The translations under genes and the position numbers were made by a program. This document shows positions 52,561 to 53,617 of a stretch of 64,000 nucleotides of DNA, piece by piece (within the stretch, counting starts at the first letter, position 1; each line of letters begins with the position of its first letter). Location: the IMG/VR virus record IMGVR_UViG_3300001533_002283, positions 1-64,000 of that record; one strand, written 5' to 3'. The DNA is from a virus. The notes under the pieces are model-generated. The model searched no databases. It was not told the DNA's origin and saw only the letters and a list, made by a program, of their open reading frames with translations.

Positions 52561-53013
52561 CTAACAAACATACAAGATTTCCCCGCCCTCGTCAAGGGGA
52601 ATAGTCAGATTTTCATGCTGGCGGCGAATCACATCAATGGGCACCTTTCTCGCCCGCTTCTCATTATTTAAAATACATTGGTCAAGACTTGTTTGAAAGA
52701 CAACCCAAGTTTTCTGATAGCCATGCGCGGTTGCCAAACGATTCCAAATCAAGCGGTTTTTACGATTATAGTTAGTTTGGTCAATGAGTATGTTCTTCCT
52801 TAGAATCATGAAATAACCAACCATATTTTCCAAAGTTTGGAATACATGATGATTCCGATCTTGATTGGATTCATCTCCGGTCATGCATAACCGCATTGTA
52901 TCCGCATTTAAATAGATATAGTCGGGATTCTGTTCTAGGAATTTTCGCGCCCAAGTGGATTTTCCACAGCCAGCGGGGCCGATGGTCAGAACAATTTGTT
53001 TGTTTTTATTCAT
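52561..53013 (-). CDS. Polynucleotide kinase-like P-loop kinase
   Basis: 150 aa. Walker A LTIGPAGCGKSTWA near the N-terminus, YLNADTMRL, then QTNYNRKNRLIWNRLA and RARKVPIDVIRRQHENL (lid Arg residues). The kinase half of T4 Pnk has the same plan: 5'-OH phosphorylation of RNA or DNA. The T4 phosphatase half is missing; the phosphoesterase at 51232-51960 may supply it. Pairs with the RNA ligase two genes upstream in an RNA-repair module. Confidence 0.8.
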   Translation of the reverse strand: MNKNKQIVLTIGPAGCGKSTWARKFLEQNPDYIYLNADTMRLCMTGDESNQDRNHHVFQTLENMVGYFMILRKNILIDQTNYNRKNRLIWNRLATAHGYQKTWVVFQTSLDQCILNNEKRARKVPIDVIRRQHENLTIPLDEGGEILYVC

Positions 53014-53617
53014 TTTTCTTATCTTTTTTGTTCAATACATACTCATTATTATCAATCCATTCAATTATCGGCTTCTGTCCAACCGTCTTTTTGTCCCAAA
53101 CAAACCATGCATAAACCATCATGCCAGTATTGTATTTTCCATCTTCTCGTAGTTTTTCTCCTAACATTGGATAGCGAGTGAATACATAAACTCTTGATAG
53201 AGGGAAGTTTGGGTCAGAATAAATGTTATCAAACCTTTTTTGCCATGAAGGTAGGATGGCGGGAGAAGAAACGCGAAATAATCAGTTAAGGTTTTTGCCT
53301 TTTGGATGAATTCGTAAGCGAGGGAGAATGGAGGATTGGTAATAATTGAATCATATTTCTCTGTTTCGTCAAGGAAATTGTGACCTGAACTAATGTCCTT
53401 TCCCACCACATTCTCCGAGAACTCTTTCAAAACTTTTACAATCGCCCCGTCGCCGCAACTTGGCTCAAGGATTGTTCCCGTTAGCTCTCTCTCTCTCTCT
53501 CTCTCTCTCTCTCTCTAAAAATTGGCGAGTAATTGAATAGGGTGTTTCATAAAAATCAGATTTTTTATGTTTGCCCTCGGAATTATTACAAGAGAAGTTT
53601 TTACCTTTAGTTTGCAT
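53006..53617 (-). pseudogene. N6-adenine-type DNA methyltransferase, disrupted by a microsatellite and a -1 shift (candidate phase-variable gene)
   Basis: The gene reads MQTKGKNFSCNN...YETPYSITRQFLE from 53617, then a 32-bp (AG)16 run. It continues in another frame as LTGTILEPSCGDGAI (SAM-binding motif I) and IITNPPFSLAYEF (NPPF catalytic motif). At the A6 run near 53235-53250 it shifts again to RFDNIYSDPNFPLSRVYVFTR...GMMVYAWFVWDK. Frame tracing: after the leading A completes TTA, the repeat leaves 31 bases, one too many, so as sequenced it ends at a stop shortly after the repeat. (AG)14 or (AG)17 would restore the frame. The start overlaps the RNA ligase stop (TAATG); the last bases overlap the next gene by 8. 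Confidence 0.85.
53485..53516. repeat. (AG)16 / (CT)16 microsatellite within the methyltransferase gene
   Basis: 32 uninterrupted bases of CT on the plus strand. In the gene it encodes alternating Glu-Arg where related proteins carry a short LEREK-like stretch. Dinucleotide runs of this length are prone to replication slippage. Confidence 0.95.

Follow-up and report, generated by a model that had tools for sequence, protein, structure and literature searches.

A phage DNA methyltransferase gene interrupted by an (AG)16 repeat and a second frame break: a candidate contingency locus in an OFF state

A DNA methyltransferase gene of a large uncultured phage recorded in IMG/VR carries within its coding sequence a perfect (AG)16 microsatellite that breaks the reading frame, and a second break, at an A6 tract further along the gene, shifts the frame again; as assembled, the allele is thus turned OFF at two separate places. 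The reading favoured here, at a confidence that is about evenly balanced, is that of a contingency locus caught OFF to which a second lesion has been added, or else of such a gene that may now be decaying. The virus record spans 172,181 bp, and the window, by which the whole stretch analysed is meant, comprises its first 64,000 nt.

The methyltransferase gene and its family

The gene (Table 1) starts with an ATG at 53617, which overlaps the stop codon of the RNA ligase gene (TAATG) and has a strong ribosome-binding site, GGAGGAGG, ahead of it, and its end is overlapped by the start of the polynucleotide-kinase-like gene. When the frame breaks are read through, the product matches the core profile of PHROG_799 over residues 11-193 (E=1.6e-49), which bears out the phage DNA methyltransferase identity proposed in an earlier note on this DNA, and it contains both the SAM-binding motif I (EPSCGDGAI) and the NPP[FY] catalytic motif (NPPF) of this family. 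Together these motifs fit an amino-methyltransferase, probably of the N6-adenine type as judged from the kind of motif present. On viral contigs the read-through product has 35 relatives with 56-72% identity, and the nearest proteins of named phages are gp75 of Xanthomonas phage Kintu (58%) and gp105 of Campylobacter phage CP220 (52%). The latter two and Listeria LMSP-25 gp46 belong to the same family, share EPxxGxGAI and NPPF and are of similar size, but unlike the gene in the window they are intact single ORFs without the repeat. A search of the PDB by sequence returned no structure of the enzyme.

Table 1. Features of the methyltransferase locus (positions in the window) and repeat-bearing modification genes in other contigs (locus handles).
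Feature	Position or locus	Strand	Remarks
RNA ligase, upstream neighbour	53617..54903	-	PF09414 2.4e-7; phrog_968 2.3e-38
Ribosome-binding site of the methyltransferase gene	53625..53632	-	GGAGGAGG
Orphan amino (N6-adenine type, probable) DNA methyltransferase gene	53006..53617	-	three pieces, reading frame shifts between them
N-terminal ORF	53465..53617	-	50 aa, ends just past the repeat
(AG)16 microsatellite, first frame break	53485..53516	-	perfect (CT)16/(AG)16; encodes ER/RE run
Middle segment, second frame	53242..53484	-	contains motif I and NPPF
Motif I EPSCGDGAI (SAM binding)	53440..53466	-	E-P..G invariant in the family
NPPF (catalytic motif IV)	53326..53337	-	invariant in the family
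A6 tract, second (-1) frame break	53236..53241	-	minus-strand GGCAAAAAAGGT; relatives continue through LHGKKR[FY]D
C-terminal segment, third register (frame as N-terminus)	53006..53235	-	contains RVYVFTRYPMLGE..LREDGKYNTGMMVYAW, invariant block
Polynucleotide-kinase-like P-loop protein, downstream neighbour	52561..53013	-	AAA_33 1.6e-24; phrog_505 6.2e-26
C5-methyltransferases, at least 14 AG units	L062, L067, L088, L130
N6_N4-methyltransferase, at least 14 AG units	L163
phrog_757 methyltransferases, at least 14 AG units	L107, L156
PHROG_799 methyltransferase, (AG)14 right behind the start codon	L167 3602-3629	-
Mom, AG tract	L101
PAPS-reductase family, AG tracts	L050, L053, L057, L079, L100
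Queuine-transglycosylase-like gene, AG tract	L151
Nucleoside deoxyribosyltransferase, AG tract	L058
C5-methyltransferase family, repeat at homologous site past catalytic half	L062, L074, L127, L176-L181, L183-L187, L189, L195, L199, L200, L225, L263-L266, L280

The AG repeat

The (AG)16 run represents the long pure simple-sequence tract within coding sequence by which an SSR contingency locus is recognized. It is the sole dinucleotide run of more than five units in the 172-kb record, the next longest having 5 units; the chance expectation for runs of at least 16 AG units in 172 kb is 2e-15 under a Markov model, and 20 simulations produced no AG/CT run longer than 6 units. With n=16 the N-terminal ORF ends after 50 aa, and the repeat counts compatible with the frame are 2, 5, 8, 11, 14 and 17. 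In these respects the description given in the earlier note, namely a 32-bp (AG)16 tract with motif I and NPPF on its far side and a frame that is broken at n=16 and compatible at n=14 or 17, is confirmed. The same note had proposed a comparison with homologues lacking the repeat, and all 35 viral relatives turn out to have no AG run at this site. Since no viral contig was found with an AG run directly before EPxxCGxxG or shortly after DFYETP, the position of the repeat is so far unique.

The tract falls in the stretch that separates the N-terminal helix from motif I, and a homologue model (mean pLDDT 77, 16 sequences) places it in the linker that leads from helix 19-31 to the motif-I strand 40-42, where an ER extension appears plausible. 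One relative (L014) reads L-L-E-R-E at the position of the repeat, which makes a natural GAG AGA GAG seed likely. On the favoured reading, the Leu-Glu-Arg-Glu codons before motif I (GAG AGA GAG) would have seeded slippage expansion to (AG)16, a surface linker would tolerate the resulting ER run, and the repeat count would decide in which frame the catalytic domain is read. The tract would then be expected to vary in the phage population, and this variation may have been selected as a means to vary phage methylation, in the form of either restriction evasion or host-range hedging.

The second frame break and the competing explanations

The PHROG_799 profile matches the record in three consecutive pieces (53501-53605, 53236-53481 and 53006-53209), and the frame changes between them fall exactly at the AG repeat and at A6; the family sequence is spread over three frames instead of a single continuous one. 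Relatives pass LHGKKR[FY]D into an invariant C-terminal third with the block YVFTRYPML..LREDGKYNTGMMVYAW, and the middle frame of the window ends in residues unrelated to their sequence. With n=14 or 17 the ORF attains only 150-152 aa, ending in ...LHGKKGLITFILTQTSLYQEFMYSLAIQC. In the homologue model the part lost after the A6 break corresponds to the second half of the sheet, and a product with the AG frame restored and A6 still broken should therefore be inactive, to the extent that the model holds. Toggling by repeat number alone in an otherwise intact gene, as expected of an SSR contingency locus, is precluded here by the A6 break. The earlier claim that slippage by one or two units would switch the gene consequently holds in so far as the repeat does break the frame, but the A6 break also blocks the full-length protein and, being independent, prevents AG slippage alone from switching the assembled allele. 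The sampled copy would yield only a 50-residue stub, and two events would be needed to obtain the enzyme.

It is possible, though on balance unlikely, that the gene is a plain pseudogene, knocked out first through loss of an A from the homopolymer or through some other lesion, with neutral expansion of AG afterwards and no switching. This would be in line with the second frame break and with L115P, a substitution that hits an otherwise invariant position, as well as with the tract not being common to any relative. In addition, the phage retains other methyltransferases outside the window, two of the N6_N4 type (N6_N4_Mtase genes at 168879-169562 and 159946-160599 of the record) and one PHROG_799-like (89807-90082 of the record), so that a loss would be affordable. 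On the other hand, the motifs, the codon continuity within each piece and the remaining invariant columns are preserved: the window product deviates at 2 of 50 family-invariant columns (R17H and L115P), as compared with 0-6 in intact relatives, and with so little other decay the frame breaks look recent. Moreover, a perfect 32-bp repeat is unlikely to arise by neutral drift where other dinucleotide runs have five units at most, and like tracts recur, with length polymorphism, in other phage modification genes.

The break at A6 might also reflect an assembly or sequencing error, with the repeat count perhaps off by one unit, in which case the real gene would be phase-variable or simply ON. Indel errors are usual in homopolymers and dinucleotide tracts, the source is a metagenome contig of which only the consensus is available, and the remainder of the gene looks functional. 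Nevertheless, indel errors seem rare in this record because its long ORFs stay unbroken: 120 kb are covered by 123 ORFs that do not overlap, each about 150 aa or longer, among them uninterrupted genes for a DNA polymerase of 873 aa, a ribonucleotide reductase of 857 aa and the DnaB helicase, and the window alone contains about 170 A6/T6 runs. An error is for this reason considered rather improbable, and less credible than a pseudogene. A codon-score scan of the record for other frame breaks was weak, as it did not flag the known breaks themselves. Neither a second contig of the same phage matching the exact flanks of the methyltransferase repeat nor near relatives, sought with the neighbouring RNA ligase as query, were found.

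The N- and C-terminal pieces lie in a common frame, which may be coincidence or compensation. The same net frame would also suit recoding, whereby -1 frameshifting at A6 in combination with a length-tuned repeat would provide low-level enzyme, and in bacteria the sequence AAA AAA G is prone to slippage. Such recoding is nonetheless very hard to credit, as frameshifting would be required at the AG repeat too, all relatives are in frame without it, and a stimulatory structure downstream of A6 was not found (z=0.08). In order of decreasing probability, the explanations are a contingency locus with an added lesion, a pseudogene, an assembly error at A6 and, far behind, recoding. The first is suggested by a unique repeat that defies chance, its placement in a linker, the strong ribosome-binding site, the little decay and analogous variable tracts in other genes, while the A6 break, L115P, the failure to find a second contig of this phage or an AG run at this site of the family in another phage, and the modest significance of the comparison between AG and AC tracts (see below) count against it.

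Repeat tracts in modification genes of other viral contigs

A survey of viral contigs for tracts of at least 14 AG units returned at least 119 loci, and among those listed the tract-touching genes, where identified, were mostly DNA-modification or base-modification genes (Table 1), the exceptions being primase, minor tail, virion/tail and ribonucleotide reductase genes and one unknown. The Mom, PAPS-reductase, queuine-transglycosylase-like and deoxyribosyltransferase loci have (AG)14-20, and the PAPS-reductase-like genes are provisionally counted as DNA modification by virtue of the DndC-type family. In the modification genes the coding strand is always the one that reads AG, and some alleles are in frame whereas others are out of frame. 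The tract of the PHROG_799 methyltransferase at L167 is preceded by two overlapping ATGs in different frames (ATGTATG), an arrangement that resembles classic phase-variable genes. Pfam identified a modification gene at 9 of 34 repeat loci; among 114 ORFs taken as controls from these contigs the number was 7 (p=0.002). In an AC-repeat control, a modification gene lay within 300 bp of the run at 3 of 120 loci; when self-hits are left out and the distance is capped at 150 bp, 12 AG loci compare with 3 AC loci, a modestly significant difference (p=0.03), and the presence of modification genes near AC loci means that the enrichment is not confined to AG. Viral contigs also have tracts of at least 14 AC units that lie in or close to genes for C5 or N6 methyltransferases (L305, L371 and L361). 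As phage hallmark genes, portal and capsid are present on the L101 and L107 contigs and terminase on those of L163 and L050; on the L062 contig none was detected with the models tried, and its viral nature is taken from IMG/VR. A search of isolate phages with five of the other AG-bearing modification genes gave no near match.

Length variation was found in other phage METHYLTRANSFERASES: two C5-methyltransferase loci, with n=17 (L176) and n=15 (L177), both out of frame, show no difference in the 2209 bp upstream of the tract or in the 1465 bp downstream (3674 bp in total). Similarly, (CAGA)12 in L263 is matched by (CAGA)9 in L264 between identical 1500-bp flanks on each side (3000 bp), and these two loci, which come from bacterial genome assemblies, are likely of prophage origin. 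The C5-methyltransferase of L062 was found in six contigs, its homologues carry GACA, CAGA, ACGA, AGAGC or G8-G12 at the same site, and several C5-methyltransferase homologues have extra polyG tracts between apparent target-recognition segments that lie in differing frames. Such differences in repeat number in comparable phage genes make a slippage mechanism plausible for the methyltransferase in the window. A further pair of loci, L089 and L120, has AG tracts of 15 and 17 units with identical 1500-bp flanks on both sides.

Taken jointly, these loci suggest, with roughly equal weight for and against, that phages in general phase-vary their own DNA-modification enzymes by means of SSR tracts (AG, AC, GACA, CAGA, ACGA, AGAGC and polyG), the gene in the window being one such locus, doubly OFF. 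The enzymes concerned would be orphan N6- and C5-methyltransferases, Mom, and PAPS-reductase-like and queuine-transglycosylase-like proteins; in some C5-methyltransferases the tracts would separate target-recognition cassettes, and mixed DNA modification in the phage population would serve as a hedge against host restriction.

Relation to known phase-variable systems

With the SSR phase-variable methyltransferases of bacteria (mod genes, phasevarions), the present gene shares a slippage-prone tract in the frame and an ON/OFF logic, but it is phage-borne, carries a second lesion in the sampled allele, has no restriction partner in sight and is known from sequence alone. The earlier note knew of no described phage example of dinucleotide-repeat phase variation in methyltransferases, and this stands, as no report of SSR phase variation in phage DNA methyltransferases was found in the open-access literature; for other phage genes, however, such variation is already published. 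In a 2025 review (PMC11868660), polyG phase variation of receptor-binding proteins in Campylobacter Fletchervirus is credited to Sorensen et al. 2021. As presented there, that system resembles the present one in that a phage gene contains a hypermutable tract, and for the Campylobacter phages it has been shown that expression depends on the frame and that the phage populations are mixed; by this account it differs in concerning receptor-binding proteins and in being experimental, whereas the present gene acts in DNA modification and its dinucleotide tract is read from the sequence. Within the open-access literature searched, there seems to be no description of dinucleotide tracts in the DNA-modification genes of phages, and on that basis the wider pattern can provisionally be called novel.

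Should the modification genes of phages prove to be contingency loci, their populations would be epigenetically mixed, and slippage could flip restriction escape and host range inside one plaque. Single assembled genomes would then seem to hold pseudogenes, and annotators would discard switchable genes as broken; at the same time, a route would be offered to testing restriction pressure as a driver of phage phase variation. For the gene in the window the message is more modest, that of a methyltransferase that was broken recently and is not demonstrated as a switch.

Other features of the record

Elsewhere in the window, a UvdE-type UV endonuclease gene is located at 58040-58936, and the opposite strand encodes a transposase (phrog_506) at 62311-63453. 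At 150934-153012 of the record, a large protein is encoded of which one stretch resembles proteins found in other phages, either DarB-like antirestriction proteins or structural ones. Finally, positions 27073-27119 of the window hold a perfect 23-bp tandem duplication, TTTTTATACGGAATACAATCTTC.
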